DNA from: an uncultured Bacteroidales bacterium
Lineage (GTDB): Bacteria > Bacteroidota > Bacteroidia > Bacteroidales > Muribaculaceae
Assembly (NCBI GenBank): GCA_902792895.1
Contig: CADBBK010000012.1
Span: 1-64,000 of the forward strand
Length of the DNA stretch: 64,000 nucleotides
Direction of reading: 5' to 3'
The notes beneath the pieces are model-generated. The model was not told where the DNA came from, ran no database searches, and worked only from the letters and a program-made list of their open reading frames with translations. Below are positions 11,401 to 33,643 of the stretch, one piece after another (positions within the stretch are counted from its first letter, which is position 1; each line of letters starts with the position of its first letter). The translations under genes were made by a program, and so were the position numbers.

Positions 11401-11426
11401 AACTTGAGCTACTGATGATGCTGAGG

Positions 11427-13874: not shown

Positions 13875-13922
13875 CAACCATTTTACCTGTCCCAAATGCT
13901 ACCCTGGAGACGCAAAATATGT

Positions 13923-14277
13923 CATGAGTCACCCGGAGGGTGTCCTCTGAGTAACCGGCGGTAATGCTGGCAACCGAGCGGAGCGAGGGCGGCAGCATCA
14001 CCGCCGGTATGAACTGTCGTGGACCGTCGCTGAAGGCGACCCCATAGCAGCAGCCGTAATGGGGTCGCCCTGCAGGCGACGTAGAGGACAGTTATGCCAT
14101 CACCCCCAGTGAATCAGACTCCCGCGCTACGCTTGGTCGCCTGATTTACTGGGGGTTACTCAAAGAGCCGCCCTTCGGGCGTCTGCCACTCTACTAGACT
14201 GGCCTTACTCGTCATCTGCCATGAATCACCCGGAGGGTGTCTGCCACTTCGCTAGAGGCTGGCCTTACTCATCATTT
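13923..14277. repeat. Multi-hairpin intergenic repeat region
   Basis: Three long inverted repeats stand in a row. Arms 13954-13969 pair with 13993-14008. Arms 14012-14018 pair with 14087-14093, with inner arms 14035-14044 and 14060-14069. Arms 14102-14117 pair with 14141-14156. A small hairpin follows at 14169-14181. The whole is flanked by two copies of a CATGARTCACCCGGAGGGTGTC block (13923 and 14220), and the stretch around 14181-14218 is repeated with changes at 14239-14275. No convincing ORF is present. The 672-bp gap 13632-14303 otherwise holds only the promoter and palindrome listed. Confidence 0.8.
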
Positions 14278-14303
14278 GGGATGTTCCTCTCGTGTCAGCG
14301 GCG

Positions 14304-16031: not shown

Positions 16032-16048
16032 CCTAGGGGCTACAGTGG

Positions 16049-16411
16049 TTAGTTGGTAGTACTTGTTCCGGAGCCTTGGATGGCACGTACCTGGCGCTGG
16101 AATTCCAGCGGGCGCTTGATGTAGCGCAGCACGATGGTGCCGGCTCCGGTGCCTGAGACCTTGATGGTGCCGTAGTTGAAGATGCGTCCCCACAGGTTCT
16201 GCTCAACGAGGATGCTCTCTACCTTGCCGATGACAATCTCGTGTGCATGGCGGTGGATCCAGCCGTGGCTGTGGAAGAACCGCTTGTCGCTCACAAAGAT
16301 GGTCGTGGTCAGGTTGCGCACGAGGTGTCCCAGCTGCAGGTAGGCCCACTTGCTGAGTCGGGGCTGGTAGATGATGGTTTCGCCGGGGGCAATGATTCTG
16401 CTGATTTTCAT
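16049..16411 (-). CDS. Bacterial PH-domain (bPH2/DUF304) protein
   Basis: A 120-aa protein consisting of one bacterial pleckstrin-homology-like domain: FHSHGWIHRHAHEIVIGKVE, SILVEQNLWGRIFNYGTIKV, then SGTGAGTIVLRYIKRPLEF. This is the HEI...KIESI.VEQ..WGR...YGT pattern of PF03703. The membrane helices usually found before this domain are reduced to one weak segment near WAYLQLGHLV. The function of the family is unclear (membrane-associated). It is followed closely by the AraC-type regulator. Confidence 0.8.
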   Translation of the reverse strand: MKISRIIAPGETIIYQPRLSKWAYLQLGHLVRNLTTTIFVSDKRFFHSHGWIHRHAHEIVIGKVESILVEQNLWGRIFNYGTIKVSGTGAGTIVLRYIKRPLEFQRQVRAIQGSGTSTTN

Positions 16412-16449
16412 AACATATCCTTAAAATTGGTGCAAACCGAAAACAAATG

Positions 16450-16519
16450 CAAATATATTTGAATATTGTTGAGGTGCAGCCAAATTTATTTAAAAAACGT
16501 TTCTTATTGGGCAAAGTTA
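16450..16519 (-). promoter_or_regulatory. Two candidate -7 boxes for the PH-domain gene
   Basis: The minus strand has TATATTTG (16450-16457) and TAACTTTG (16512-16519). Neither has an ideal TTG at 19-20 bp, so which is used is open. Confidence 0.35.
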
Positions 16520-16578
16520 CTGCTTATTTCCGCATTATTTAGTAATTTCGCACCGATTTTTTTCAATACTAGAAGATT

Positions 16579-19769: not shown

Positions 19770-19843
19770 GGTCCTATAGCTCAGTTGGTTAGAGCACCTG
19801 ACTCATAATCAGGGAGTCCTTGGTTCAAGCCCAAGTGGGACCA
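19770..19843 (+). tRNA. tRNA with CAU anticodon (Met elongator or Ile2)
   Basis: A 74-nt cloverleaf. The acceptor stem GGTCCTA pairs with TGGGACC (19836-19842, one wobble), the D-loop is AGCTCAGTTGGTTAGAGC, the anticodon loop is CTCATAA with anticodon CAT, and the T-arm is CTTGGTTCAAGCCCAAG. The discriminator is A at 19843 and CCA is not fully encoded. Whether the C34 is modified to lysidine (Ile2) cannot be told from sequence. The 3' 51 nt belong to a 54-bp direct repeat and mark the integration site of the island. Confidence 0.93.
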
Positions 19844-19846
19844 CAA
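19793..19846 (+). other. attL (left 54-bp direct repeat, in the tRNA 3' end)
   Basis: Identical to 32850-32903 over 54 bp, from AGCACCTG to GACCACAA. The island supplied this 3' end and restored the tRNA. Confidence 0.9.
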
Positions 19847-19856
19847 GGTTGAAAAT

Positions 19857-19888
19857 AAAGCACTTACGATTTATTTCGTAGGTGCTTT
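19857..19888 (+). terminator. Terminator after the tRNA, supplied by the island
   Basis: Arms 19857-19869 and 19876-19888 form a 13-bp stem with one wobble, followed by a T-rich stretch. It lies just inside the island end. Confidence 0.65.
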
Positions 19889-19908
19889 ATCTTGTGTTTT
19901 TAGTCCTC

Positions 19909-19934
19909 AGGAGAAACAAAAGGAGAAACATTTT
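19909..19934 (+). repeat. Left 26-bp end repeat, candidate integrase arm site
   Basis: It contains two AGGAGAAACA decamers separated by AA, then TTTT. It is identical and in the same orientation at 32731-32756. Confidence 0.75.
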
Positions 19935-19946
19935 ATGCTTGTTTTG

Positions 19947-20627
19947 CTATTTTTTATGGTTCCTAATCCAATCCTCAACGTCAGTGGACTTGAAGGTGAC
20001 ATGATTATGTGCTCCTTTAATCTCGTCATAACCCTTGTAAGGAAAATCATGTGCTATTCTCCATTTGCGGGCTTTGATGTTGTTTTTAGGTAGTTTGTAT
20101 TTGTTTACGACTTGAGGCGTCGTTAGCCATTCCGTATCTTCTGTTTCCTCAACCACTTTTGTAGTTTCGGGATTCTTGCCAATGTTAGTTTCAGGATTCG
20201 TGCTTGTATTAGTCTCTTGACGATTTTCTTCTGTGATAAGTGATGCGAATCTTTCAAGATACTCTTTTTGAATTGCTACGCACTCTAATACAAATTTGCA
20301 GTAATGGTAATCGTCAAGCAGGGATTTGGTACGCTTTCCATCAGGCTGAGCATTGTAGTCTCTAAGCGTAGCGTTTACGGTTTCTTTTGTTGGTACATCA
20401 AAATGCTTTTGACGCTCTCGCACTTCATCAATTCGTCTGATTGTGATGCTTCGTTGCGATTCGTCTAAGTAGTAAAGGTCTGAGACAGCCTTGCTGTAAA
20501 GATTATCAATCATCATTTGATATGAATTGGATGATTGCATTTCTGTGATGTCGTTATACGATGAATTCTCTTGACACATCGATACTCGACCCAATTCGTT
20601 GAGTAAAACTTCTATATTATTTATCAT
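19947..20627 (-). CDS. HTH/excisionase-like protein at the island's left end
   Basis: A protein of about 226 aa from the ATG at 20627 (MINNIEVLLNELGRV); the longer frame to 20750 contains the promoter and is rejected. The N-terminal two thirds are helical and polar, with a Thr/Asn-rich linker (TNTSTNPETNIGKNPETTK). The C-terminal 60 residues (WLTTPQVVNKYKLPKNNIKA ... VTFKSTDVEDWIRNHK) look like a winged-helix of the MerR/excisionase type: a helix, a turn, then the final F..DVE.WI. Its place next to the att site suggests a directionality factor or regulator; this is inference. Confidence 0.65.
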   Translation of the reverse strand: MINNIEVLLNELGRVSMCQENSSYNDITEMQSSNSYQMMIDNLYSKAVSDLYYLDESQRSITIRRIDEVRERQKHFDVPTKETVNATLRDYNAQPDGKRTKSLLDDYHYCKFVLECVAIQKEYLERFASLITEENRQETNTSTNPETNIGKNPETTKVVEETEDTEWLTTPQVVNKYKLPKNNIKARKWRIAHDFPYKGYDEIKGAHNHVTFKSTDVEDWIRNHKK

Positions 20628-20670
20628 ATTGTATTCTGTTTTTCTTATAAATAGGTTGGAACCTGAGTGG

Positions 20671-20678
20671 CAAAGATA
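20671..20678 (-). promoter_or_regulatory. -7 box for the HTH gene
   Basis: TATCTTTG on the minus strand, 43 bp before ATG 20627. It decides the start against the longer frame. No clear -33 box. Confidence 0.5.
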
Positions 20679-20907
20679 ATACATTAGGTTTATACTAATT
20701 TTTTTTCCGGAAAAAATTTTAGAGAAGTCGCATGAGAAACCGATGCCCACCCCATTGCTATATGTGGGCAGGACACCCTATAGCGGGTTACGCTGATAGG
20801 GGGTATGGGGGAAGGGGTATCAGGAGGGGTGAGATTGACCTTTCTTCAAATTGGGAATAGCCCCATATTTATAGAAGAACACGATTAAGTATCGTGCCAC
20901 TTTAGAT

Positions 20908-21339
20908 ATGGAGAATGGAAGATATAGAATAGTTTTTGACTCGACAGATATCGATACAGCTGACTCTTTAGAAGAAGTGATTTCGTCGATTACATCAGCA
21001 TTGAGAAAAGCCACACAGTCCGCTGATGAGCAGGGCTATCCACTACAGTCCAATAAGTTTTATGATACAATAACCAATAGGTTCATTATTATTGACAAGG
21101 AGACCAATGATGAGTTTGACGGTAGCGGTTATCCTATATATGGAAAATATGTTCTCACGAAAGGTGATATCACCAAGAAGTTGAACGCAAGAAACCTATC
21201 TGGGGCCATGCAATATCTCTATGAAGTTGTAGCAGAGGAGTGTGAGTGGCTTCGAATGATTAAGGATGATGTGAATCCATCAGATGTCAGAAATGAATAC
21301 TCAATCATCAACACCAAAACCGCTCTGGTGTACAACTGA
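20908..21339 (+). CDS. Unknown island protein, 143 aa
   Basis: An acidic soluble protein (MENGRYRIVFDSTDIDTADS at the start) with a helical segment LEEVISSITSALRKATQSAD and a strand pair FIIIDKETNDEFDGSGYPIY. I do not recognise it. Its last codons overlap by 56 bp with another frame that encodes a C-terminal membrane helix (21284-21496), so the true gene may be longer through a frameshift. It lies next to a zinc-ribbon membrane protein gene in convergent orientation. No strong promoter box was found in front. Confidence 0.6.
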   Translation: MENGRYRIVFDSTDIDTADSLEEVISSITSALRKATQSADEQGYPLQSNKFYDTITNRFIIIDKETNDEFDGSGYPIYGKYVLTKGDITKKLNARNLSGAMQYLYEVVAEECEWLRMIKDDVNPSDVRNEYSIINTKTALVYN

Positions 21340-21496
21340 TACGGTGAAGGTATCGTCTAACCTTGATTTAGACAAGCATTCTAAGATTAAACCAATTATA
21401 CCTCACATAATTCCAAGCCACGGAACCACCTTTCATAAGAAAATTTCGTGGTTTATTCTTGTTCTGTTGTTCTGTTATCTTTGGTTTTCATATTGA
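21284..21496 (+). CDS. Possible C-terminal membrane extension of the 143-aa ORF, or separate small ORF
   Basis: A 70-codon frame, +1 relative to the upstream gene. The first part reads in the overlap and has little meaning. The last 35 residues end in KKISWFILVLLFCYLWFSY, a membrane helix with a basic flank. Two explanations fit: a frameshift (natural, programmed or sequencing) that would make a tail-anchored protein of about 195 aa, or a chance ORF. Its 3' end also overlaps the convergent gene by 44 bp. Confidence 0.3.
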   Translation: MSEMNTQSSTPKPLWCTTDTVKVSSNLDLDKHSKIKPIIPHIIPSHGTTFHKKISWFILVLLFCYLWFSY

Positions 21497-21920
21497 TTTC
21501 GTGGAGATTGATTGAGATATTAGCAATAACATGACAGAATTCCTTGATTAAACGACCGACCCCAATCAAAATAACACTGATTACAAATAGATATGATAGG
21601 ATGGTTAAAATGCTACCTATAAACAGACCAAGTTCATGAGTAGATTCAGGGATATTGATATCACTATTCTCTGCAAAATATTTAATTACCATATTGACAG
21701 AAAATATAATTGCTAACGCCACACTGAGATACCAAATATAATCACCTATCGTTTTTATTGTAGACTCATTTTTAGTTCCTGTATCTGTTGTGGCAACAGA
21801 GATTTTTTCTCCCACCGTGACGTTTGGGGAAGACGTACTTTCAGACCAACCACAACTTGGACAGCTTACAAGATTCTCCTCGAAAAACTCACCACATTTT
21901 GGACATTTTATATACTTCAT
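21453..21920 (-). CDS. Zinc-ribbon membrane protein
   Basis: A 155-aa protein. The N-terminus has two Cys pairs, KCPKCGEFFEENLVSCPSCG, of the zinc-ribbon form. A polar linker and two membrane helices follow (IWYLSVALAIIFSVNMVIKY and LGLFIGSILTILSYLFVISV), then a polar tail with HEINMKTKDNR. No function can be given; zinc-ribbon membrane proteins are common in mobile elements. A good promoter lies at 22027-22057. Confidence 0.65.
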   Translation of the reverse strand: MKYIKCPKCGEFFEENLVSCPSCGWSESTSSPNVTVGEKISVATTDTGTKNESTIKTIGDYIWYLSVALAIIFSVNMVIKYFAENSDINIPESTHELGLFIGSILTILSYLFVISVILIGVGRLIKEFCHVIANISINLHEINMKTKDNRTTEQE

Positions 21921-22026
21921 CTTGAATTAGTTTATTGTGTTCAACTTGATTAATGACACATACAGATAAAAGAGGGTCTTCATCCTCATAACTGTATGTC
22001 TGCACATCTTTGTCAATATGCATCTG

Positions 22027-22057
22027 CAAAAATACGCAATTCACATAAATGACACAA
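22027..22057 (-). promoter_or_regulatory. Promoter of the zinc-ribbon gene
   Basis: TTG, 20 bp, TATTTTTG on the minus strand, 107 bp before the start. The rest of the gap 21921-22272 contains only this and the mod promoter. Confidence 0.55.
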
Positions 22058-22229
22058 CAAACCAATTGATTTTTACTAAATCAGAACAATGTTTAGACAC
22101 AAGCTTAACGCCAAACCACTGAATAGTCCATATAAGGGAAGGGCGATACTTGGTTTTCATATTATCAGATTTGGGCTTTTTTTTATATGTTTTTGGGTCA
22201 GGATCGGCCAAGCACTTTAAAAATAGATG

Positions 22230-22237
22230 TATATTTG
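22230..22237 (+). promoter_or_regulatory. -7 box for mod-res
   Basis: TATATTTG, 35 bp before the ATG at 22273. It argues against the longer frame starting at 22150. Confidence 0.5.
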
Positions 22238-22272
22238 CATTCCATAAGCAATTAGAAAAACCAAGCAAATAT

Positions 22273-24417
22273 ATGGCCAAGATAGATGACCTTATCAATA
22301 GGATTGACGATGAGGAACTTCAGAACCGAATCAGGGAAGAAGTTCGCAAACTCAAAAAGCAGAAGAAATTCGGTTTAGTGTATGAAGAACACTTACCCGA
22401 GGCTACTCCTCTGTACGATGTTCCAATCAAACAAGGTTCGACAGTTGTCAAGCGAGATGGCGACATCAATGAAGTCTATTATGTATCCAAAATTGAAGGT
22501 GATATACTGCGTTGTATCCGGATGGACAGGTCGAAAAAGGAAACAATCTTCGACATAGATGAGATGGTCACTGTGTCACAGTTTGGACAGCCGATATTCC
22601 CTTTTCTCAAACCGTTAGACCGTATCTGCAATGCACCTGATAGCGACTTGTGGCATATCCTTATTGAATCTGATAACTACCACGCACTTCAATTGCTTCT
22701 TTACCTCTATGAAGGTAAAGTTGACTGTATCTATATTGACCCGCCTTATAATACAGGGGCAAGAGATTGGAAATATAATAATGATTATGTCGCTAAAGAC
22801 GACAAGTATCGGCATAGTAAATGGCTTTCTTTTATGGAGCACCGATTGAAATTGGCACGTCGGTTGTTGAATCCAAAAGAGAGCGTTTTAATTGTGACAA
22901 TTGATGAAAAAGAACAGGCACGACTTGGCTTGCTTTTAGAACAACTGTTTCCTGATGCTCGTATTCAGATGGTTGATTCTATAATCAATCGAAAAGGAGT
23001 ATCAAGAAAAGGAATGCAAGATGGAAAGTCAGGCGAAGAGGTAACTCAGTTCTCAAGAGTATCTGAGTATATCTACTTTGTAATGTTCGGAAAGATGTCT
23101 GTTGTGAAGTCTTCTTGTAATATGCTTGACACCCAAACAACGGACAATGATGATGTCGTTGAAAATGACAAAGTTCAATGGCTGTCAATGTTGAGAAGAG
23201 GAGCTGCGTCTCATCGTCCTGATAAACCGAAGCATTTTTACCCGATTTTTGTTGAGCCCAAATCAGCAACGATTAAATCAGTTGGCGAGCCGATTCCAAT
23301 AGATATGCCAAAGGAAAATGTAACTGTCCCCGACGGTCTCGTGGCTGTTTGGCCAATGAGGACAGACGGAAGTGAGGGGCGATGGCAGTTAAAGAAAGAA
23401 ACATTTGAAAAAGCACTGTCCGATGGAACAGCTAAACTTGGCTCATATAATAAGAAAACTGATAGGTGGGCAATCAATTACTTGAATGAAGGAATTAAAG
23501 ATGAGATAAAACGAGGCGCAATAATTGTGGTTGGTAAAGATGATAAAGGTGCCTTAGTTTTGAAACGAGAAAACAAAAAGCTACTTGAGCCTAAATCAGT
23601 ATGGAATCAGGTATCGCATAATTCAAGTGAATATGGCACTACTCTTTTAAATAGCATTATTGGCAGTGAACGGTTTAGTTATCCTAAATCCCTGTACGCT
23701 GTACAAGATACGGTAGGATTGTTTGTGAAAGATAATCCTAATGCCCTCATCCTTGATTTTTTCGCAGGGTCAGGGACTACTCTCCATGCTGTTAATCTCC
23801 TAAATTCTGAAGACGGAGGAAAAAGAAAATGCATCTTGGTCACGAATAATGAAGTTTCAAATGCTGAAGCAAAGAATTTGAGAGAACAAGGATACCGACA
23901 AGGTGATGACGAATGGGAAAGATTAGGGATTGCCCATTATGTCACTTGGCCAAGAACTGTATGCAGCATCAAGGGACAAGATATTAATGGCGCCCCTCTT
24001 AACGGCACATATTTAAGCTCCGATAATCCTATGTCTGATGGTTTTAAATCCAATGCTATATTCTTCAAGTTGGGCTTCCTCGACAAAGATGAGGTCTCAT
24101 TAGGCCGAAATCTGAAAGAACTTCTTCCAATGCTATGGATGAAGGCTAATGCTATCGGAGATTGTCCGACTTTGAATAGTGACGCTGATATTCCCGAAAT
24201 GCTTATACTCCCGAAGAACAAAATGGCTGTCTTGATAGACGAGGACTCTTACCCTGAGTTCCGTGACAAAGTGAACTTGGACAAAGACATTGAGACGGTC
24301 TTCATTGCCACCGATTCAGAAGATGGCTACCGTGAAATGATATCACGGCTTGACGTTAAACAAACATATCAGTTGTTCCGAGACTACCTCGACAACTTCA
24401 CTCTAAATAAAAGGTAA
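22273..24417 (+). CDS. Type III restriction-modification system DNA methyltransferase (Mod)
   Basis: A protein of about 714 aa that should methylate adenine in a short asymmetric site (N6) and give specificity to the Res subunit. The start MAKIDDLINRIDDEELQNRI is a coiled N-terminal helix typical of this group. The beta-class motif order is seen: catalytic motif IV DCIYIDPPYNTG (about residue 150), then the target recognition region (about 240-480), then the SAM motif I LILDFFAGSGTTLHAV (about 490). It is followed after 2 bp by the restriction gene, as in type III operons. The 755-aa frame from 22150 would add a hydrophobic leader lying before the promoter box. Confidence 0.9.
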   Translation: MAKIDDLINRIDDEELQNRIREEVRKLKKQKKFGLVYEEHLPEATPLYDVPIKQGSTVVKRDGDINEVYYVSKIEGDILRCIRMDRSKKETIFDIDEMVTVSQFGQPIFPFLKPLDRICNAPDSDLWHILIESDNYHALQLLLYLYEGKVDCIYIDPPYNTGARDWKYNNDYVAKDDKYRHSKWLSFMEHRLKLARRLLNPKESVLIVTIDEKEQARLGLLLEQLFPDARIQMVDSIINRKGVSRKGMQDGKSGEEVTQFSRVSEYIYFVMFGKMSVVKSSCNMLDTQTTDNDDVVENDKVQWLSMLRRGAASHRPDKPKHFYPIFVEPKSATIKSVGEPIPIDMPKENVTVPDGLVAVWPMRTDGSEGRWQLKKETFEKALSDGTAKLGSYNKKTDRWAINYLNEGIKDEIKRGAIIVVGKDDKGALVLKRENKKLLEPKSVWNQVSHNSSEYGTTLLNSIIGSERFSYPKSLYAVQDTVGLFVKDNPNALILDFFAGSGTTLHAVNLLNSEDGGKRKCILVTNNEVSNAEAKNLREQGYRQGDDEWERLGIAHYVTWPRTVCSIKGQDINGAPLNGTYLSSDNPMSDGFKSNAIFFKLGFLDKDEVSLGRNLKELLPMLWMKANAIGDCPTLNSDADIPEMLILPKNKMAVLIDEDSYPEFRDKVNLDKDIETVFIATDSEDGYREMISRLDVKQTYQLFRDYLDNFTLNKR

Positions 24418-24419
24418 TT

Positions 24420-27311
24420 ATGAAAGTCGAACTGTTTCCTTTCCAAAAGACAGCTGTGACCCTTTTGAGACAAAACTGCGAAATGGCGAAATCCAACTAT
24501 CGCACAATGGCCAAGCCGCAGATTATCTCGTTGACTGCTCCCACTGGTGCGGGCAAGACGATTATCGCCTCGGCATTGATAGAAAATATCTACTGTGGAG
24601 ACCATAAATATGAGGCTCAATCGGACACAATAATTGTGTGGTTGTCGGATTCTCCACAACTAAACGAGCAGTCGAAAGAGAAGATAGAGCGAACCTGTGA
24701 CAAGTTGCACACTCAACTCATCACCATATCAGAGGATAGTTTTGACCAAGAGATTCTGACTAATGGCAATATCTATTTCCTTAACACACAAAAATTGGGT
24801 AAGAACAGCAACCTCGTCAAGCACTCAGATAATCGTCAATTCACGATTTGGGAGACCTTACAAAATACGATTACTGAAAAGTCAGAGCAACTTTATTTTA
24901 TTATTGACGAGGCTCATCGTGGCGCAAAAGGCAGTGAAGCCGGAAGAGCTACGACCATTATGCAGAAGTTTATCCTCGGCAGTAAAGAAGATGGACTCAG
25001 CCCAATGCCGTTGGTTATAGGCATGAGTGCCACCTCTGAAAGGTTCCACGCTCTGATAGTAAATGCTTTAAACTCTACAACTAATTTGGTGGTTGTGTCG
25101 CCTGATGATGTGCGTAAATCAGGCTTGCTTAAAGACATCATTAAAATTGACTATCCTGAAGACCAACTGCTGAATAAAGATATGGCAGTTCTTCAAGCTG
25201 CATCTGACGAATGGATGGACAAGTGCAAACATTGGCATCTCTATTGCCAAGAGCAGCATTACAGTTTTGTGAATCCTATCTTCCTTGTGCAGGTTGCAAA
25301 TGCTACTAAGGGTAACATCACCGCAACAGATTTGGATGATTGTCTTAGCAAGATTGAAGAGCGATTGGGCATAAAGTTCAAGGCAGGAGAAGTCGTTCAC
25401 GCATTTGGTTCACCCCAATCCACTATCACGATTAACAACTTGGATGTACCCCACGTTGAGCCATCACAGATTGAGAGCAATAGGGACATCAAGGTGGTTT
25501 TCTTCAAGGATACACTCTCAACTGGTTGGGATTGTCCGCGAGCCGAGACGATGATGTCGTTCCGTACCGCCAATGATGCCACCTATATTGCTCAGTTGCT
25601 CGGTCGAATGATACGCACACCCAAGGGAATGCGTATTCTGGTAGATGAATCTCTCAACGAGGTGCATCTCTTCTTGCCGAACTTCAACCGTGACAATGTT
25701 GAGAAAGTAGTCAAGGCTCTTCAAGATGCCGAGGGTGCAAATATTCCTACAGAGATATCAAGTGAGACCATTGGAGAGCATAAAACCGAGGTTTTAACGG
25801 TAGTTCCTAAGCAGAAAACAAACAAGCCTACACTTGAACCACCAACTGGTAAATCGCCTACACCGAACGAAGGTGGTGCGGCTGTTGATACGGTCAAGCC
25901 TACACTTGAACCGCCAACTGATGAATCGCCTACACCGAATGATGGAAATGCAACTGTTGATACGGTCAAGCCTACATCAGAATCACCAACAGATAAATCG
26001 CCTACACCGAATGAAGGTGGTTCAACTGTTGATACGGTCAAGCCTACATCAGAATCACCAACAGATGACAATTGGCAATTTGATGGGAATAACGCAGGTG
26101 ATATTCCTTACGACCCTATTGAGCCATCGAAGCCAAAAGATGTAGTTGTGCCCGAAGAACAAGAGCCACAGTTGGATAGACTTGAGATACTGAATGCCAT
26201 CAACAGCAAGGCTCTGTTGACCTACAATGTAAGGACATTAAAGATTAACAATTATTTCACCTCATTGTTCAAGATGGCCCGATTGTTGAGTCAATCAGGC
26301 TTGAACAGTAAGGTAAGAAAAGATATTATCGATGAGATTGTTGAGAAAGTGCACGACCAGATCGTTGGCCTTAAAGCCAACAATCAGTTCGATGCACTTG
26401 TGCAGAAAATAAAGGAGTTCAAGTTGCACACTCAGACATTCGATGTGTTTGGTAAATCGGTGGATGACCACATTGAGCAAGACTTGTTCTCTACAACCAA
26501 TACCGATATCGACAGACAATATAACCATGCTGAGGCTATATTGGGCAATGAGGGCATAGGTAAAGCCTATGGCAAAAAGTACTTTGATGTTGATGATGTC
26601 TATGCCTACAAGTTGGATGTGATTATCTTTGCTAACGATGCCAAATGCATTGACGATTTGCAGGATTATGCAAAGGTCAAATATCACGAACTGATGGATA
26701 AGTATCGTGTGCAGATTGCTAACTTGGACGCCTCATTCAAGAACCAATTTGATAAGATTTCCTCTGATGCTGACGAGATAAGCAAGCACAACTTTACGCT
26801 GCCACAGAGCATCGTTGAAATCAAGGATGCTGATGGCGAAGAGTATAGAAACCACCTCTACGTCAACGCGGATGGTTTCGCCACAATAAAACTGAATGGA
26901 TGGGAGGATAAACTCATAGCCGAAGAATCGAAGCGTCCTGATTTCGTGTGTTGGCTGCGTAATCGCCCTCGCAAGCCTTGGGCACTGTGTATTCCCTATT
27001 CATTTGATAACGAGAATCGCAAGCTTTATCCTGATTTCATCATCATCCGTAAAGATGCAGTCAACGGCTATATGGTCGACATCCTTGAGCCTCATGGTTC
27101 GACATTTAATGATAACCTTGCCAAGGCGAAAGGATTGGCCAATTACGCAAAGGAGAATGTCAATGCTGCAAGGATTCAATTGATTAGGTTAGTTGGAGAT
27201 AAATTAATCAGGCTGAATCTCACAAGTTCTCTCACCCGAGAAAAGGTGCTAAAAGCCATCAGCAACGAAGAACTTGACCATATCTTCGATACTGATGGCA
27301 TAACTGAATAA
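24420..27311 (+). CDS. Type III restriction-like DEAD/DEAH helicase-endonuclease subunit (Res)
   Basis: A 963-aa SF2 helicase. The N-terminus MKVELFPFQKTAVTLLRQN holds the Q-like motif. Walker A is LTAPTGAGKTIIAS (about residue 40), the DEAH box is LYFIIDEAHRGAKG (about 165), motif III is VIGMSATS, and motif VI is IAQLLGRMIRTPKG (about 400). Residues 469 to about 551 are a repeat linker. The C-terminal region contains KLYPDFIII and MVDILEPHG, which correspond in place to the PD-(D/E)xK nuclease but with E-P-H where E-x-K is usual. The ATG is 2 bp after the mod stop, so the two are coupled. It should cut unmodified foreign DNA after ATP-driven movement; nuclease activity is inferred. Confidence 0.87.
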   Translation: MKVELFPFQKTAVTLLRQNCEMAKSNYRTMAKPQIISLTAPTGAGKTIIASALIENIYCGDHKYEAQSDTIIVWLSDSPQLNEQSKEKIERTCDKLHTQLITISEDSFDQEILTNGNIYFLNTQKLGKNSNLVKHSDNRQFTIWETLQNTITEKSEQLYFIIDEAHRGAKGSEAGRATTIMQKFILGSKEDGLSPMPLVIGMSATSERFHALIVNALNSTTNLVVVSPDDVRKSGLLKDIIKIDYPEDQLLNKDMAVLQAASDEWMDKCKHWHLYCQEQHYSFVNPIFLVQVANATKGNITATDLDDCLSKIEERLGIKFKAGEVVHAFGSPQSTITINNLDVPHVEPSQIESNRDIKVVFFKDTLSTGWDCPRAETMMSFRTANDATYIAQLLGRMIRTPKGMRILVDESLNEVHLFLPNFNRDNVEKVVKALQDAEGANIPTEISSETIGEHKTEVLTVVPKQKTNKPTLEPPTGKSPTPNEGGAAVDTVKPTLEPPTDESPTPNDGNATVDTVKPTSESPTDKSPTPNEGGSTVDTVKPTSESPTDDNWQFDGNNAGDIPYDPIEPSKPKDVVVPEEQEPQLDRLEILNAINSKALLTYNVRTLKINNYFTSLFKMARLLSQSGLNSKVRKDIIDEIVEKVHDQIVGLKANNQFDALVQKIKEFKLHTQTFDVFGKSVDDHIEQDLFSTTNTDIDRQYNHAEAILGNEGIGKAYGKKYFDVDDVYAYKLDVIIFANDAKCIDDLQDYAKVKYHELMDKYRVQIANLDASFKNQFDKISSDADEISKHNFTLPQSIVEIKDADGEEYRNHLYVNADGFATIKLNGWEDKLIAEESKRPDFVCWLRNRPRKPWALCIPYSFDNENRKLYPDFIIIRKDAVNGYMVDILEPHGSTFNDNLAKAKGLANYAKENVNAARIQLIRLVGDKLIRLNLTSSLTREKVLKAISNEELDHIFDTDGITE
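25824..26070 (+). repeat. 72-bp minisatellite inside res (3 units plus partial)
   Basis: Units start at 25824, 25896, 25968 and 26040. Each encodes 24 residues of the form KPT(L/S)E(P/S)PT..SPTPN.G...VDTV. Units 3 and 4 are closer to each other than to unit 1. The unit is a multiple of 3, so copy changes keep the frame and only change linker length. Confidence 0.95.
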
Positions 27312-27365
27312 AGCATTTTCAATTGAAGAGAATTAGTTCCTTATAACAAATTAAAAATATAAATT

Positions 27366-27569
27366 ATGACAAAGACTACAATTAAATTTTTCGTAGGCTC
27401 ACCGGATACTGTCAAGAAAGACTATGACCTGTTCGTTATGCGGGAAGGAAACCTAATATGCATCTACGATTGGTTATTGAGCGGCACCGCAGAAAAAGTT
27501 GTTTTAGGTGTCGTATATAGAAATGAGTATAGTGACGCACATGTTTCTTTTGACAAAATCATAAAATAG
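27366..27569 (+). CDS. Small unknown protein downstream of res
   Basis: A 67-aa protein with several strands (TIKFFVGSPDTVKKDYDLFV, NLICIYDWL, VVLGVVYR). It starts 54 bp after res on the same strand with AT-rich spacing and is probably cotranscribed. There is no known motif. A role as accessory or inhibitor of the restriction system is possible but only by position. Confidence 0.55.
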   Translation: MTKTTIKFFVGSPDTVKKDYDLFVMREGNLICIYDWLLSGTAEKVVLGVVYRNEYSDAHVSFDKIIK

Positions 27570-27611
27570 GAGGTTTATATCACATAAGACAAGAAAAATC
27601 ACTAAAAGAGT

Positions 27612-27632
27612 AAAAAGGTTTTTAATCCTTTT
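27612..27632. terminator. Short hairpin between the 67-aa gene and the serine recombinase
   Basis: AAAAGG and CCTTTT arms around TTTTTAAT, between convergent genes. Confidence 0.45.
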
Positions 27633-27638
27633 GCCCCT

Positions 27639-28271
27639 TTACAACTGAAAGTCCTTCTTCACTCGTTGGACTGTACTGATGCTTTTCTCGCACAGTTTAG
27701 CAGTGACTCGGATAGAGTAGCCCTTTTTCAGGTATGCGATGATATCACGGTATTCCTCTGCTCTCTGTTCCAACGTCTTGACAGAACCCTTCATCCTGCC
27801 GACCCTGCCACCTTTGGCAACATAAGCCTTCAAACCGCTATTTAGCCTGAACTTGATATTCTCTCGTTCTAATTGGGCACAGGTACTGAGGGTGGCAATC
27901 ATTATCGGTGCAAACATAGTGGGTTTGCCATCTGCATCCAACAGATTGAGTTGTTCTTTTTGCATATAAAGGTTGATGCCGTTGTCAACCAAATCCTTGA
28001 CTGTGGCAAGCACCTCGAAAGCATTCCTGCCAACCCTGCTGAGTTCAGAGACAAGCAGCGTATGGATTTTGTTCGCCTTGCAGTAAGCGATAGCATTAGT
28101 CAAGCCTTCACGCTCATCATTCTTCTTGGCTCCTGAGATATGTTCCTCGAACACCTCTTTTACTTCCAACTTGGCATAGTCGGCATACTCTCTCAGGTCG
28201 ATGACCTGCCTTTCGGTACTCTGTCGGTCACCCACACTTGAAACTCTCGCATAAATTACTGAAGTCTGCAT
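27639..28271 (-). CDS. Serine recombinase (resolvase/invertase family)
   Basis: A 210-aa protein with the N-terminal catalytic domain (IYARVSSVGDRQSTERQ, Ser in RVSS; HISGAKKNDEREGL; LLVSELSRVGRNAFEVL) and the long dimer helix with a C-terminal HTH (GYSIRVTAKLCEKSISTVQR). Size and order match small resolvases and invertases rather than large serine integrases. In the island it could resolve multimers or invert a segment; no clear pair of inverted sites was found by eye. A promoter lies 177-207 bp upstream. Confidence 0.87.
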   Translation of the reverse strand: MQTSVIYARVSSVGDRQSTERQVIDLREYADYAKLEVKEVFEEHISGAKKNDEREGLTNAIAYCKANKIHTLLVSELSRVGRNAFEVLATVKDLVDNGINLYMQKEQLNLLDADGKPTMFAPIMIATLSTCAQLERENIKFRLNSGLKAYVAKGGRVGRMKGSVKTLEQRAEEYRDIIAYLKKGYSIRVTAKLCEKSISTVQRVKKDFQL

Positions 28272-28447
28272 ACTCTATCTTATTTGAAATTAATGTTCAA
28301 AAAACTCAAAGCGTTTTCGTAATACACCAATTGACGGGTTTGACGTGAAACACTCAACATTATCAGAATATTTTGAATACACCTCATTATTTGAATACGG
28401 AACACGCATCTCTCACCCGCTTATTAATGCCTGATTTTGAGGCTAAA

Positions 28448-28478
28448 CAAAGTTAGGCATATCATTCGAGCGGGCCAA
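28448..28478 (-). promoter_or_regulatory. Promoter of the serine recombinase gene
   Basis: TTG, 20 bp, TAACTTTG on the minus strand. The leader of about 170 nt contains two TTTGAATAC words 18-20 bp apart (near 28371-28400), a possible binding site. Confidence 0.6.
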
Positions 28479-28788
28479 AAAAATGTAGCTAAAGAAAGCT
28501 AATAACAAGTTTTTCGCAATACACTTGATATCGCAATAGATGTGCTCGCTCCATAAATGAATATAATAGTAGTAAGTTGCACAGCACACGGTCTCCTTTT
28601 GAATTAATTGGGGTTTGACTATGGCGCATATTGATAGATTAAGGTGTTGAGAATGAGACAAAAGATGTGCTGTAGAGCGATAAAGATGCTACTGAAAGGA
28701 CTCTCGGTAATAAAAAGGGGTATATAACCAATGCTCAAACTCTGAGGAAAAACTTGAAAAATATTCAGTTATTTATTTATTGAATTAC

Positions 28789-28857
28789 AAAGGGGCAGTG
28801 CACCGTGGCCAAGGGTGCAAAACGGTTTTTTACTGCTTACGTTTTTACTGCCCCTTT
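28789..28857 (+). other. Large hairpin before the primase-like gene
   Basis: Arms 28789-28799 and 28847-28857 form an 11-bp perfect stem. Between them a smaller GCACC/GGGTGC hairpin and a T-run occur. It ends 43 bp before the ATG of the primase-like gene, so it can be an attenuator, a replication-related structure, or a terminator. The remainder of the gap 28272-28899 (628 bp) is AT-rich and shows only the recombinase promoter. Confidence 0.6.
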
Positions 28858-28899
28858 TTATATAAGCAGTATGAAATAAAAGAATAAATACAAGCAGTA

Positions 28900-30603
28900 A
28901 TGAACAACTCAGATTTCACATTCGGTTATTCAACAAGTACATGTCCATATGACCGAAATAAGGACTCAAAGAACACGAGCAAATTAACATGGGAAGAAAA
29001 GCGGGGCACAGTTAGAGACCTTGCCAATGATATTAAAAACGGCTATGCCTTTTGCCCAACATTCTACCACGATGGCAGCGCATTTGGAATGTCTGCAAAA
29101 AACCAAGTTAATCTAAAATCCTCCAACTTTATTGTATTTGATTTTGATGCGGTGAAACTTCCGGCAGGTGAGTTTTATGGGAAAACCATTGCTACCGACT
29201 TAACACCATCCATCATATACACAACGGCAAATGACGGAGTATTCAAAGATGGCAAGAATGAAACCTTTTGTAACCGTTATAGGGTTATATATGTGGTGGA
29301 TGACCCAATAACAATGGCCGAGACTTATACGGAGATACACCAAGCACTAAAGGCTGATATTGCTACCTATGTCGGTGACAATAACATCTACAATGATAAC
29401 ACTGATAAAGACGTGGCACACTTCTTTGCAGGGTGCAAGAATACTGAGCTGTACTGCAATAATACGGTTATTTCATTGGTGGGTCTTTGCAATAGATATA
29501 ATGTTGTGGTCAGTGATACGGCATCCGCATACAGTGCTAAGACTAATAACTTAATAGAAGATAAAAGTGCAAAACCATTCCCTTGTGTTGACATAAAAGA
29601 AGAAGAGAAGTATTATACAACACGAGGGAACATAATTGCACTTTTTAAAGACTTTTACAATGACTTTCTATCAAGGCAAAAAAGTATCTATGACCTCGTA
29701 CGGGAGTATAGCGGTATATTGCCATTATTACCTGAAGAGACCCCCGTAGAATATGACCCCGACAAACTATATAAAGTAGTGGAAGAAAACCACATTAGGA
29801 TAGTACGCAGGCGGCACAAGGTCACAAAGCGAGATGCAAGGGGCAATGAGTATGAGGCATGGGAAACTGTCAAGTTCAAGGATGGGCAACGCAGGCACGA
29901 AATACTGTACAAAAACCTGCAAATGGTGAAAGCCATTACCCCCACCGCAACACGAGAACAGCTGTTATGGCAGGGTTTGAATTTCGTTTGTCGTGACTTA
30001 GACAATACCAAACAACCAATCACCAAGAGCCAAGTAAGCAATACCGTTGAGCAGGTCATGAGTCGTGAATGGAAACCATCTGAGATAAGCAAACAGAAGT
30101 ATAAAGTGACAATTGCAGTAGATAAGGAACTTGCAGCGCAAAAAGGCATTAAGAGAAGATATTCAGGGCTTGCAGCAGCTCATGAGTGGAAGACGGATGA
30201 GAAGATGAAGAAATGGGAAAAGATTGCCACCTATTATGACCCCACAAAGACGGACAAAGACAATGTAAAAATAATGAATGATGCAGGCATTTCGGTAACT
30301 GTGCAGTACCTAAGAAAATGGAAATGCAAAAATGGCTATAGCGGTAAGGGCAAACAGTCAAAGAGTGAACAAATCGCACTCTATTATGACCCATCACTGA
30401 CGGATGGGCAGAACCTTGAACAGTTGGCTGCAAATGGGGTTGGTATCTCATTGCGTACCCTACAGACATGGAAGGCTGCGAATGGCTACACCAAGTCAAA
30501 GAAAAAGACAGATAATGAGTTTATTGTTTCAGCGGCTTTTGAAACACAAAAAAGTAACTGTGAAATTTCCTCGCATGATGCTGCACTAAACCCTGATTTG
30601 TGA
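28900..30603 (+). CDS. Primase-polymerase-like (AEP) replication protein with duplicated C-terminal module
   Basis: A 567-aa protein. The N-terminal 200 residues follow the pattern of plasmid and phage primases of the archaeo-eukaryotic type: IKNGYAFCPTFYHDG, then SSNFIVFDFDAVKLP (the hhhDhD metal motif), then SIIYTTAND, then CNRYRVIYVVDDPI, then DVAHFFAGCKN. The middle (250-430) is not recognised. The C-terminus holds two similar segments of about 50 residues, YYDPTKTDKDNVKIMNDAGI and YYDPSLTDGQNLEQLAANGV, each ending in a helix with LRKWKCKNGY or LQTWKAANGY, which look like HTH units. It would let the island start its own replication. The 3' end overlaps the convergent gene by 83 bp. Confidence 0.6.
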   Translation: MNNSDFTFGYSTSTCPYDRNKDSKNTSKLTWEEKRGTVRDLANDIKNGYAFCPTFYHDGSAFGMSAKNQVNLKSSNFIVFDFDAVKLPAGEFYGKTIATDLTPSIIYTTANDGVFKDGKNETFCNRYRVIYVVDDPITMAETYTEIHQALKADIATYVGDNNIYNDNTDKDVAHFFAGCKNTELYCNNTVISLVGLCNRYNVVVSDTASAYSAKTNNLIEDKSAKPFPCVDIKEEEKYYTTRGNIIALFKDFYNDFLSRQKSIYDLVREYSGILPLLPEETPVEYDPDKLYKVVEENHIRIVRRRHKVTKRDARGNEYEAWETVKFKDGQRRHEILYKNLQMVKAITPTATREQLLWQGLNFVCRDLDNTKQPITKSQVSNTVEQVMSREWKPSEISKQKYKVTIAVDKELAAQKGIKRRYSGLAAAHEWKTDEKMKKWEKIATYYDPTKTDKDNVKIMNDAGISVTVQYLRKWKCKNGYSGKGKQSKSEQIALYYDPSLTDGQNLEQLAANGVGISLRTLQTWKAANGYTKSKKKTDNEFIVSAAFETQKSNCEISSHDAALNPDL

Positions 30604-31417
30604 ACAGTTTAGTTGATGAAATAAGAATGAACGTATCGACAAGGTTGAAACCAATTTCAGCCGCTTTCTTCTGCACATAGAAGCTTATCCATTGCTGTTT
30701 TCCTGCGTTGAAACAGTCCATAGTTTTCATTATGAGAAACCCTTTGGGTCCAAGTATTCTGAAAGAAAGAGAAAGCATATTATCATTGGCGCCGTACAAC
30801 TCATCAATGGTATCAAACGCAGAAAATCGTTGGCCAATCATACTACTCTCTTTTTTCCCTTTTCCAACGATGAACGGCAAATCCACAACGACGGACTTGA
30901 AGCAGCCATCGGTCAGTGTTGATGTTTGCTCAAGAGGAAGGACATCATCAGATTCAGGATATTTGTCAAAACGATTCTGAGGCAATGGTATCTGTTTGTA
31001 GAAGTATCCTTTTGAAAAGGTCAAATCACAATCGAATGTTGATGAGTGAACATAAAGCCTCAAAATGTTAGAGAGGATTTCAGTTTGGTTATTGCTGACG
31101 GAATTTATATTTCCCGTCCGTGTGTTCGTGTCAATTTTTGATACTTTTAAAGTATTACTTTTTGACGGTTTTTGGGCGGGGTCAAGATACTTTTTTACTG
31201 TGTTGATAGACAGATTCAGTGTTCTTGCCATTTCCGACAAGCTAATACTTGGCTTTTCCTTACTTAGTTTTTGAACGGCAATATACTTTTGCAGTTGAGC
31301 ATCATATCTTCTGTCGATGCCCTGCCTTTGAATGAATTTTCTGACGGCATAAACCGTCACACCGCATCGAGCGGCATTCTCTTTAATAGATTCCTGCGGG
31401 TTGTATAAGATTTTCAT
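30521..31417 (-). CDS. HTH protein fused to a methyltransferase-like domain
   Basis: A 298-aa protein. Residues 1-80 contain two helix-turn-helix units (ENAARCGVTVYAVRKFIQRQ and LSEMARTLNLSINTVKKYLD). Residues about 115-298 have the shape of a DNA amino-methyltransferase of the beta class. DCDLTFSKGYFYKQ opens it; VVVDLPFIV stands where DPPY is expected; DELYGANDNMLSLSFRILGPKGFLIMKT is the helix-strand region; KFHSYFFVFQK closes the fold. The motif IV change (DLPF) leaves activity open. It may protect island or host DNA, or act as a regulator. It lies 35 bp after the integrase gene on the same strand. Confidence 0.6.
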   Translation of the reverse strand: MKILYNPQESIKENAARCGVTVYAVRKFIQRQGIDRRYDAQLQKYIAVQKLSKEKPSISLSEMARTLNLSINTVKKYLDPAQKPSKSNTLKVSKIDTNTRTGNINSVSNNQTEILSNILRLYVHSSTFDCDLTFSKGYFYKQIPLPQNRFDKYPESDDVLPLEQTSTLTDGCFKSVVVDLPFIVGKGKKESSMIGQRFSAFDTIDELYGANDNMLSLSFRILGPKGFLIMKTMDCFNAGKQQWISFYVQKKAAEIGFNLVDTFILISSTKLFTNQGLVQHHARKFHSYFFVFQKPLKQ

Positions 31418-31452
31418 TCCGAAAAGATACTAAGTAAATTTTGAAAGATGCG

Positions 31453-32694
31453 TTAATCATTCTTCTTCCCAAAGTTCTCAAGAATATTTTTGCTCGCTTC
31501 AAGGATGTTTGTTGAAAGGGAACCAAGATAGGTCTGCGTTGTGGCGCTACTGCTATGTCCAAGAAATTTTTGAATTTGCTCTGCTGTCATACCATCAAGC
31601 ATCATAAGAGTCGCATATGTATGACGAGCATTATATGTTGTGATTTTTCTTAGCCCAAGAACATCAGAGATGCTCTTTAATCCTGCGTTTACTTTTCTAT
31701 TAAGTCTTCTAATTCGGTTTTCGAGATTTGATTCTGACGTTGAATTTGCAAGGTATGGCAAAATAAGTGAATTGGGTTCGGCTTCATTAATAAGACCATA
31801 TTTATTGAACAGAGTCTTTGCTACATCAGTAAGTTTGAACTGAATCTCAATATTGGTTTTTTGAGTTTTTCTTCTGATGAAAGTTACAGTATCATTCTCA
31901 ATATTAGAGTTCTTAAGCAGTAAGATGTCTCCAAGGTTGGCTCCGGAACAATGTAGTGAAAGTATGAAGAAATCCTTGCCAATTTCTTCTTTTTTGTCTT
32001 TCGGTGTGTATTCTATGAACCTTTTCAATTCCTCTGTAGATAATGCTGCTTTTTGTCTTTTAATGCTTCCAAGATTCTTTATGGCAAATGGATTCTGCTT
32101 GTTAGTATATCCTTTGTTAATAGCGAAATTATAGATTGCTCGCAGTTGACGAAGATATATATTGAGAGTGTTTTGGGAGATAGCAGTTCCATGCTCCTTT
32201 AGATGCGTTTGCTCAATGAACGAAATGAGATTGTCAACAAAGTCCGGAGTTATTGACGAGAGCGTGACATTCCTTCTGTACCTTTTGACCCAATTTACAG
32301 AAGTCTCGTATGATTTTATCGTTTTGTATTTACTCTTGTGTTTGGGGTCGTTGAAATACTCTGAGAGCAACGAATCAAGAGAACTCGTTATTGCCATTCT
32401 TCCTGTTAGTCTCCTATTGTACCTTTCCCTGAACGAAGCAAAAGTGAAATCTGAGCCTAACTCATCTATCACTTCTTTTGCTATTTTAAGTGCCTTTTCT
32501 GCGACATCATACGCTTCTATTGTCCTCTTCAGCCTTCTATTGTTGAACTCTTTTTGGGTAAGGCGAATGGAATCGTCTCCTATGCTATATTGACGATTTC
32601 GTCTCTGATATGTTACACGAAGAACTAAGAGTTTGTTCTCAACCTCTTTATGTTTAGCATCTAAGGCTATTACTACAGTCGGTCTACTTTTCAT
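31453..32694 (-). CDS. Tyrosine site-specific integrase of the island
   Basis: A 413-aa tyrosine recombinase. The N-terminal arm-binding part has the Bacteroidetes form (VTYQRRNRQYSIGDDSIRLT). A SAM-like core-binding domain follows (residues about 100-200). The catalytic domain contains LSLHCSGANLGDILLL, KTQKTNIEIQF, then TTYNARHTYATLMMLDGMT, FLGHSSSATTQTYLG with the Arg-His and final Tyr. It should insert and excise the element at the tRNA 3' end. The gene starts 156 bp from the right att repeat, with the right arm repeat in between, and reads into the island. Confidence 0.92.
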   Translation of the reverse strand: MKSRPTVVIALDAKHKEVENKLLVLRVTYQRRNRQYSIGDDSIRLTQKEFNNRRLKRTIEAYDVAEKALKIAKEVIDELGSDFTFASFRERYNRRLTGRMAITSSLDSLLSEYFNDPKHKSKYKTIKSYETSVNWVKRYRRNVTLSSITPDFVDNLISFIEQTHLKEHGTAISQNTLNIYLRQLRAIYNFAINKGYTNKQNPFAIKNLGSIKRQKAALSTEELKRFIEYTPKDKKEEIGKDFFILSLHCSGANLGDILLLKNSNIENDTVTFIRRKTQKTNIEIQFKLTDVAKTLFNKYGLINEAEPNSLILPYLANSTSESNLENRIRRLNRKVNAGLKSISDVLGLRKITTYNARHTYATLMMLDGMTAEQIQKFLGHSSSATTQTYLGSLSTNILEASKNILENFGKKND

Positions 32695-32730
32695 TTCTTT
32701 TTTTCTGCAAAGATAAAAAAAAACTCTTAA

Positions 32731-32756
32731 AGGAGAAACAAAAGGAGAAACATTTT
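32731..32756 (+). repeat. Right 26-bp end repeat, candidate integrase arm site
   Basis: Identical to 19909-19934, same orientation; two AGGAGAAACA decamers. Confidence 0.75.
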
Positions 32757-32849
32757 CAAGAAAATATAAGAAATGACAAGAAATTAACTTTTCTAATAGA
32801 TGCTTAATCAGTTGATTATAAGAATAAATAAGAAAGGATAAGAATTATA

Positions 32850-32903
32850 AGCACCTGACTCATAATCAGGGAGTCCTTGGTTCAAGCCCAAGTGGGACCA
32901 CAA
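32850..32903 (+). other. attR (right 54-bp direct repeat, displaced tRNA 3' end)
   Basis: A copy of the anticodon-to-3' end part of the tRNA without its 5' half. It represents the original chromosomal 3' end. Confidence 0.9.
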
Positions 32904-32913
32904 TAGGGAAGAC

Positions 32914-32945
32914 AAAACCGCCGACATTCATGTGCCGGCGGTTTT
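32914..32945 (+). terminator. Terminator after attR, probably the original tRNA terminator
   Basis: Arms AAAACCGCCG (32914-32923) and CGGCGGTTTT with a T-rich tail. It lies 11 bp after the displaced tRNA end. Confidence 0.7.
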
Positions 32946-32974
32946 GTTTTAGTTTCTGCTTTGAAATGCTGCAC

Positions 32975-33643
32975 TCAACGTCGTGGAATATCGGGCAGAT
33001 AGATGTCGGCATCCACAGCGGGCATATTATGGAAGCTTTGAATCCCGCCAACAATGACTACTTCGCCCATACAGCTTTCTTGCGGTTTGAGGGCGATGAC
33101 GACACCTTCATCGTCCGTTGTCGCTTTTACCTTGTATTCTTGGCTTTCATATCCCACATAGGAAATCTTCAGTTTGCTGCCGCGGGGCACACGAATGGCA
33201 AAATTGCCATCAATGTCGGTGGCTGTGCCGCGGTTGGTCCCCTCAAGGATAACACTCGCACCGATGCACTCAGATTGGTCATCCTTGTCGATGACCTTGC
33301 CTCTTACCACCACGGCGGTGGTGTCGCCCGGGGCGGCATCGACCAGCCGCGGGGTGGGCCGCTGGGTGGTGGCTTGGGGTGTTGCGGTTGCCACCTGCTG
33401 TGCATGCATGGGCATCAACGAGGCTGCTCCCAGGGCCAGCCCGGCTAGAGCCACTTTCTTGCCCGTTGCGGTGCGCCGGAGCAACTGTCGCTCGATGTAT
33501 CGCAACTCGCTCTCGCAAGCCGGACAGGTGCCGGCACAGTCACCCTCATGGGTGCAGACATGGGGCGTGAAGTCAATGTCGTTGGCCTGAGCGATGCGGC
33601 AACGGATTTCACGCAAGGATTTGCATATCTTTTTCCCGTTCAT
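32975..33643 (-). CDS. Membrane protein with Cys-rich N-terminus and carboxypeptidase-D-like domain
   Basis: A 222-aa protein. The N-terminus MNGKKICKSLREIRCRIAQA followed by CTHEGDCAGTCPACESEL is a cytoplasmic Cys-rich module seen in many Bacteroidales proteins. One membrane helix follows (VALAGLALGAASLMPMHAQ), then a Pro/Thr linker, then a carboxypeptidase-regulatory-like fold (VRGKVIDKDDQSECIGASVI, GTATDIDGNFAIRVP, KISYVGYESQEYKV). The latter is also the N-terminal plug extension of TonB-dependent receptors. The function is not known. A good promoter lies at 33715-33745. Confidence 0.78.
   Translation of the reverse strand: MNGKKICKSLREIRCRIAQANDIDFTPHVCTHEGDCAGTCPACESELRYIERQLLRRTATGKKVALAGLALGAASLMPMHAQQVATATPQATTQRPTPRLVDAAPGDTTAVVVRGKVIDKDDQSECIGASVILEGTNRGTATDIDGNFAIRVPRGSKLKISYVGYESQEYKVKATTDDEGVVIALKPQESCMGEVVIVGGIQSFHNMPAVDADIYLPDIPRR

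Follow-up and report, generated by a model that had tools for sequence, protein, structure and literature searches.

The window analysed here, a stretch of 64,000 nucleotides from an uncultured Bacteroidales bacterium of the Muribaculaceae (assembly GCA_902792895.1, contig CADBBK010000012.1), contains a block of about 13 kb (positions 19793-32903) that is foreign DNA, inserted precisely into the gene of tRNA-Met(CAU) and with a type III restriction-modification (RM) system aboard. Each end of this island is a perfect 54-bp copy of the 3' part of the tRNA gene, and by comparison with related genomes its integration into tRNA-Met appears virtually certain. The island apparently represents an undescribed branch of helper-dependent mobile elements. 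We lean, if only by a little, towards a site-specific integrative element capable of excision, probably able to replicate and dependent on a helper, which would more likely be a phage, as for satellites, than a conjugative element. In better studied bacteria, mobile defence against phages is found on satellites and on other elements that depend on helpers (PMC10803314; PMC9122126). Since the integrase clade has a fixed site, empty sites are known and the RM cargo varies, the travel of RM systems between gut Bacteroidales becomes directly testable.

Insertion into the tRNA-Met gene

The island is delimited by the following features:

19770-19844, + strand: tRNA-Met(CAU), its 3' part now provided by the island's left end (ARAGORN; empty sites)
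19793-19846, + strand: attL, the left 54-bp copy of the tRNA 3' part (repeat finder; empty sites in relatives)
19855-19890, + strand: island-borne hairpin directly after the tRNA (folding energy -21.0 kcal/mol)
32850-32903, + strand: attR, the displaced 54-bp copy of the tRNA 3' part (repeat finder)

The tRNA-Met(CAU) is the sole tRNA found in the window by ARAGORN. A preliminary description of this DNA had claimed a complete, AT-rich island between perfect 54-bp repeats in this gene, and both points were borne out. The two copies are identical, position 19793 being paired with 32850 by the repeat finder, and the GC content is 0.36-0.45 in the 1-kb segments lying entirely within the island versus 0.43-0.59 in 17 fully external segments, 13 of which reach at least 0.50. 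Of the 101 genus genomes, 84 contain an exact match to a 45-base piece of the core; 79 have a single copy and five have two, and the reversed control pattern was found in none. Since double copies are restricted to five genomes and the control is empty, a chance origin of the second copy is unlikely. These five are the genome of the window (G000), G340, G268, G060 and G095 (G and L numbers are our handles for genomes and loci).

The gene flanking the island on the right (32975-33643) has a counterpart in 15 of the 101 genus genomes, the own genome counted (E-value up to 1e-70). In five of these 15 places (G164, G305, G272, G301 and G347) the same flank lies directly behind a single intact tRNA-Met, i.e. 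the site is empty, a comparison of the kind suggested in the preliminary description; in two places, the window and G340, a displaced copy of the tRNA 3' part is present. The tRNA is also present in G360 and G187, separated from the flank gene by about 1.2 and 3 kb, respectively. The places in G348, G122, G337, G307 and G351 are uninformative, with no tRNA-Met in the stretch covered (18 kb in G348, about 1.5 kb per side in the other four). The block is hence not shared by all relatives at this place, and the right-hand copy matches the left end and is no unrelated relic; the opposite of either result had been named beforehand as speaking against the island. A chance or relic repeat is ruled out by the genus survey of core copies together with the empty sites, and an ancestral block common to the relatives by the five matching sites that lack the island. 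In the remaining genome, G338 (L172, 2532-8853), about 6.5 kb with a different, unrelated-looking integrase lie between tRNA-Met and flank gene, in which a second core copy was not found; the tRNA-Met site may thus be an integration hotspot.

At the four empty sites examined by sequence, a GC-rich hairpin follows the tRNA. Its counterpart in the window, the host's own hairpin (about 32909-32950), follows the displaced copy instead, and the island-borne hairpin takes the former place beside the tRNA, where it is a possible replacement terminator.

Gene content of the island

The main genes of the island, and the repeats next to its ends, are listed below. The family scans cover the ten main open reading frames (ORFs), to which all statements on recognised gene families in the island refer. 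HTH stands for helix-turn-helix.

19909-19934, + strand: 26-bp direct repeat, left copy, with two 10-mers AGGAGAAACA in a 12-bp period; probable integrase arm site (predicted)
19947-20750, - strand: gene A, with a C-terminal HTH (HTH_17, PF12728, E-value 0.017, under the cut-off)
22273-24417, + strand: type III RM methyltransferase, Mod (PADLOC MTase_III, E-value 1.4e-154)
24420-27311, + strand: type III restriction subunit, Res (ResIII, E-value 2e-16; PADLOC REase_III, E-value 2.3e-9, a distant match)
27639-28271, - strand: small serine recombinase of the resolvase/invertase type, 210 aa (Resolvase, E-value 2.5e-31)
28900-30603, + strand: replication-type protein with an invariant DxD and two C-terminal HTH repeats ('primase-like' being a label only)
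30521-31417, - strand: HTH fused to a phage-type DNA methyltransferase domain, motif IV DLPF (PHROG, E-value 4.6e-37; model and fold search)
31453-32694, - strand: tyrosine integrase of a tRNA-Met(CAU)-associated clade (PF00589, E-value 1.4e-13)
32731-32756, + strand: 26-bp direct repeat, right copy, 36 bp upstream of the integrase ORF; probable arm site (predicted)

The main genes are uninterrupted. The tyrosine integrase, the serine recombinase and the type III Mod and Res proteins, all of them named in the preliminary description, are confirmed by their family matches. Both RM subunits are present, the Res gene adjoining the Mod gene, and there is little doubt that the system is cargo. The Mod ORF opens at 22150, and its profile match starts from the ATG at 22273. 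The search with Res gave no match at 0.001 among PDB sequences. An in-frame 72-nt tandem repeat of three copies (25823-26068) lies in the Res gene, which makes length variation possible.

The HTH-methyltransferase proposed earlier is supported by the PHROG match and also by structure prediction. Its model has a mean pLDDT of 87.3, and a fold search with this model returned DNA N4/N6 methyltransferases among the best matches (E-value 2.7e-6); the best match has a TM-score to the query of 0.35, i.e. it is a match at the domain level. A profile search of PDB sequences found nothing relevant. Relatives of the methyltransferase domain occur at 75 viral-contig loci, most of which align only from residue 76-104 or so onward, i.e. 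without the HTH. An alignment of 43 rows was composed of 36 of these viral loci, the window and six genome-contig loci, a seventh such locus, the split L088, being omitted. Motif IV reads DPPF in each of the 36 viral rows, and all seven chromosomal, HTH-fused rows have DLPF. The HTH has two weak matches to small terminases (E-values 0.015 and 0.025), and it resembles the HTH of the replication-type protein (comparison with one profile: probability 79.8, E-value 1.5e-5; control domain 0.3).

The claim of a primase-like protein did not stand up in the same way. The residues D81 and D83 of the replication-type protein are invariant in a seven-row alignment, and this DxD motif is the sole basis of the label. 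Pfam lists 12 families for 10 members of the alignment, and none of these families is a primase; one of the 10 members (L077, 14% identical) is itself unlikely to be a relative. Moreover, the one-sequence AlphaFold2 model is poor (mean pLDDT 33.4, the C-terminal HTH blocks alone reaching 73-81), and the PDB sequence profile search gave nothing relevant, so that a primase fold is not confirmed. Relatives of the protein are found in 17 of 297 family genomes, the own genome counted (E-value up to 0.001). The nearest of them (44%) belongs to G203, where a lone major head protein gene lies about 0.9 kb away. In a prophage-like region of G198, which is of the same genus, a relative of about 25% is separated by one 141-aa ORF from genes for terminase small and large subunits, after which come portal, protease and major head genes; a large serine recombinase is encoded about 11 kb from the relative in the same stretch. 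At the G203 locus (L055, 10115-16835), an integrase, the nearest replication-gene relative and the lone major head protein gene are neighbours, and the locus is possibly a capsid-bearing satellite.

Related integrases and islands

The closest integrase in the genomes searched is that of G340 (about 61-62% identical), which sits in a 7.6-kb island in tRNA-Met together with a gene A homologue of about 60% identity. In G268, two contigs are concerned: one has a displaced core copy beside an integrase of 38% identity, the other the tRNA and an island end; 12.3 and 8.3 kb reach to the two contig ends, which gives at least about 20 kb if both parts belong to one island. Beyond the family, integrases of 31-33% identity occur in three genomes, namely G637, G500 (33%) and G588 (31%). 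A copy of the tRNA-Met 3' part is directly upstream of the integrase in G637 and G500, the intact tRNA-Met of G637 being about 25.5 kb away from the displaced copy, and no core copy was found near the integrase relative of G588. In the integrase survey, which counts the own genome, matches were obtained in two of 297 family genomes (E-value up to 1e-60), three of 101 genus genomes (1e-50) and four of 295 order genomes (1e-40), and the clade is therefore rare in the sample.

Order and orientation of integrase, replication gene and serine recombinase are common to the window and G268. The cargo of G268 comprises HsdM, HsdS, GmrSD and an HsdR-like gene in two pieces, one of them matched to HsdR. 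G637 has a TIR protein (PDB match, E-value 6.3e-43), a serine recombinase of 38% identity and HsdM/HsdS/HsdR-like genes recognised by eye. The G340 island encodes a WYL_2 protein and another one whose motifs, identified by eye, are like those of family-A polymerases; Pfam recognised no defence gene in it, the PADLOC search having covered the window and 10 proteins of other elements, not G340 or G637. Altogether, RM cargo was recognised by model or by eye in three of the four clade islands with a read interior; G500 runs into a contig end. The preliminary description had proposed a search of other tRNA(CAU) genes for the same integrase and gene order; related integrases lie beside a displaced copy of the tRNA-Met 3' part in G340, G268, G637 and G500, and the order of the three genes is kept in G268. 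The suggestion of a new family of defence-carrying elements gains from the recurrence of the integrase clade at tRNA-Met with varied RM cargo, but the clade is rare, the G340 island is without a recognised defence gene, and the kind of element is already known.

Between the window and G340, the differences at codon positions 1/2/3 are 0.29/0.21/0.61 for the integrase, 0.23/0.24/0.52 for gene A and 0.10/0.07/0.27 for the host flank gene. This pattern suggests that integrase and gene A are under purifying selection. Furthermore, the island genes are more diverged than the host flank gene, which suggests that the two islands were acquired separately and do not descend from a shared insertion.

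The two copies of the 26-bp repeat are identical and lie just within the island ends, as determined with the repeat finder. Identical 26-bp and perfect 54-bp repeats at both ends suggest a recent entry or upkeep of the element. A tandem pair with a 12-bp period is found inside both ends of the islands of the window, G340 and G268, with a similar layout and a different sequence in each. G500 has such a pair near the integrase end; in G637 none was found near that end. These sub-terminal repeats are probable integrase sites of the arm type, their sequence changing along with the integrase. Gene A is likely an excisionase or directionality factor, judged from its sequence and place. Its homologue in G340 matches HTH_17 (PF12728) with an E-value of 8e-5, likewise under the curated cut-off, the similarity in G268 is limited to a C-terminal stretch of 44 residues, and the position close to the end is the same in both.

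Proposed mobility and its alternatives

According to our favoured reading, the tyrosine integrase would recombine the 54-bp attP core with the 3' part of tRNA-Met(CAU), the element's own copy restoring the tRNA. The integrase would probably bind the paired 12-bp-period repeats within both ends, and gene A would steer excision. As the anatomy of the island indicates, the excised circle is probably copied by the replication-type protein, multimers being resolved by the small serine recombinase; replication after excision is a step that we regard as fairly probable. The type III RM system would be cargo that probably guards the carrier from phages and may also stabilise the element. Most likely, the element would travel as a satellite-like hitchhiker inside the particles of a helper phage, although we put phage-borne transfer as such at somewhat below an even chance. 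This route is favoured because core genes are phage-related and because relaxase, conjugation and virion genes were not recognised. In the ten main ORFs, the family scans found no relaxase or conjugation gene, and neither Pfam nor PHROG matched a family of capsid, portal, tail or large-terminase proteins, in line with the preliminary description; a complete prophage or an integrative and conjugative element (ICE) was rejected on these results for the main ORFs.

Several results weigh against a phage-dependent satellite. An excised circle was not seen, and the exact attP junction is absent from the viral contigs. PF05065, the sole capsid family tested, is unmatched in this genome, which leaves no resident helper identified. 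The replication fold of the DxD protein is unproven, and no relative of its gene was found in phage or plasmid records, nor in pattern-limited scans of viral contigs. Relatives of the integrase with 26-36% identity occur in five plasmid records and eight unannotated fecal phage records, and the three of the eight that were examined contain no relative of other core genes; a scan of genome contigs with the integrase gave no relative. Because integrase relatives stand in plasmid records, one of them with an annotated relaxase, conjugal mobilisation via a cryptic oriT would be another possible route. The record in question is a Bacteroides circle, whose PLSDB type is non-mobilizable.

Such an oriT-only mobilizable island (iOriT) would excise by its own integrase and depend for its transfer on a conjugative element in the same cell, which would provide relaxase and conjugation machinery. 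Elements of this type are described (PMC11389934), and the distant integrase (27%) of the Bacteroides circle with its annotated relaxase fits this idea, but the phage ties of the island core genes and the lack of a recognised relaxase make it rather unlikely. A decaying prophage remnant, which lost the virion genes and kept the integration and replication ends as well as the RM system, would explain the phage-type methyltransferase domain and the presence of a replication-gene relative in the prophage-like region of G198. However, the main genes are uninterrupted, there are signs of constraint on integrase and gene A between islands that were acquired separately, and G268, G340 and G637 (the latter by eye) have further islands of this clade in which no virion gene was recognised, so that we consider a remnant improbable. 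The same holds for a static defence island that entered once at the tRNA and has been immobile since; there is no direct evidence of excision, and the closest integrase among the genomes searched is as distant as that of G340, but the repeats kept perfect at both ends argue for recent entry or upkeep and leave this explanation a small probability.

If the satellite reading is extended, the islands might form a Bacteroidales phage-satellite family, united by integrases of one clade that is specific for tRNA-Met(CAU) and whose tandem arm sites covary. In this family, the replication gene would be swapped (DxD-type in the window and G268, family-A-polymerase-like in G340), the cargo would mostly be changing RM or other defence genes, and the HTH-methyltransferase, with DLPF for DPPF, would be an element-specific DNA marker or regulator that shares a DNA-reading module with the replication protein. 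We regard this extended proposal, taken as a whole, as speculative and rather doubtful.

Relation to known elements

Elements of the Tn4555/NBU type resemble the island in having a distantly related tyrosine integrase, an excisionase-like HTH protein and a toprim replication-type gene, as annotated in a cfxA-bearing Bacteroides record that we take to be Tn4555. Unlike the island, in whose main ORFs neither was recognised, that record has a relaxase and MobC. P4-like satellites have, like the island, an integrase and a replication gene, and in addition genes for capsid sizing, psu and the alpha primase-helicase. In the family scans of the island, none of these three P4-type functions was matched. 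P4-like satellites also have a hotspot of defence genes (PMC9122126), a further point of resemblance.

Another parallel may be drawn to the phage-inducible chromosomal minimalist islands (PICMI) of the Vibrionaceae, which are described as small, site-specific elements with an integrase, an HTH-type regulator and a replication gene, without capsid-remodelling genes and with type I/II RM systems as accessory genes (PMC10803314). The island likewise has an integrase (PF00589), a replication-type gene, RM cargo at a fixed site and no recognised capsid-remodelling genes. For PF12728, one of the two families (with PF05930) of the AlpA-type regulator of PICMI, gene A and its G340 homologue reach only the mentioned values under the cut-off. 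The site of the island is tRNA-Met and not fis, and the replication protein with its 10 alignment members matches neither PF13148 nor PF19263. Furthermore, the island adds a serine recombinase and the HTH-methyltransferase and belongs to another host phylum. Unclassified genomic islands of gut bacteria, defined as longer than 10 kb, with an integrase and neither ICE, integrative and mobilizable element nor prophage (PMC6907783), form a class into which the island fits, but this is a leftover category and not a defined family. Since PICMI, these islands and the helper-dependent elements treated in a review of hitchers (PMC11389934) are already known, we regard the island as a new lineage or variant rather than a new kind. 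Among the matches listed by titles and abstract openings, a search from which subscription literature is mostly missing, no such Bacteroidales family is described.

Control region, other elements and minor features

The remaining features of the island are:

20908-21339, + strand: ORF of 143 aa, no convincing family in the scans
21453-21920, - strand: small protein of 155 aa with weak zinc-ribbon matches (Zn_ribbon_3, E-value 0.0016, under the cut-off; phrog_6586, E-value 1.4e-7)
27366-27569, + strand: small ORF of 67 aa (ORF list; family scans)
28448-28502, no strand: non-coding stretch that shares 80% identity over 55 bp with a stretch of the G340 island

The non-coding stretch is a possible control region. 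Its 17-base part TAGCTAAAGAAAGCTAA (28486-28502) is exact in the stretches of the window and G340; among 26 sequences compared, the window and L082 have it unchanged, and L088 alone has it with one mismatch. A neighbouring, operator-like part of the G340 sequence, 32 bases long, is found with up to eight substitutions in L082, L083, L086 and L088 of these 26 sequences and is absent from the window. A control-region consensus from other elements had no match in viral contigs and in 247 family genomes; the window itself has no match to this consensus either, and G340, in which it is present, is outside the 247-genome set. The operator-like stretch is common to elements with different integrases (L082, 5813-5897; L083, 671-702 and 1176-1207; L086, 9132-9163 and 9637-9668; L088, 9627-9710).

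In G060 and G095 (L208 and L209), about 2 kb with a Sel1-type repeat gene, as judged by eye, but with no integrase separate the core copies, and both genomes were excluded from family membership; ARAGORN called both copies tRNA in L209 and one alone in L208. Finally, elements with other integrases also hold the HTH-methyltransferase, the serine recombinase or the replication gene. One of them (L077/L087, 295-10697) lies between 161-bp direct repeats (79% alike) and has a DpnII restriction system, an HTH-methyltransferase, a serine recombinase, an excisionase-like protein and an integrase. Another one (L078 in G154, 7400-17285) is located at tRNA-Leu and combines a distant replication-gene relative with two serine recombinases and an HTH that is joined to another kind of methyltransferase.

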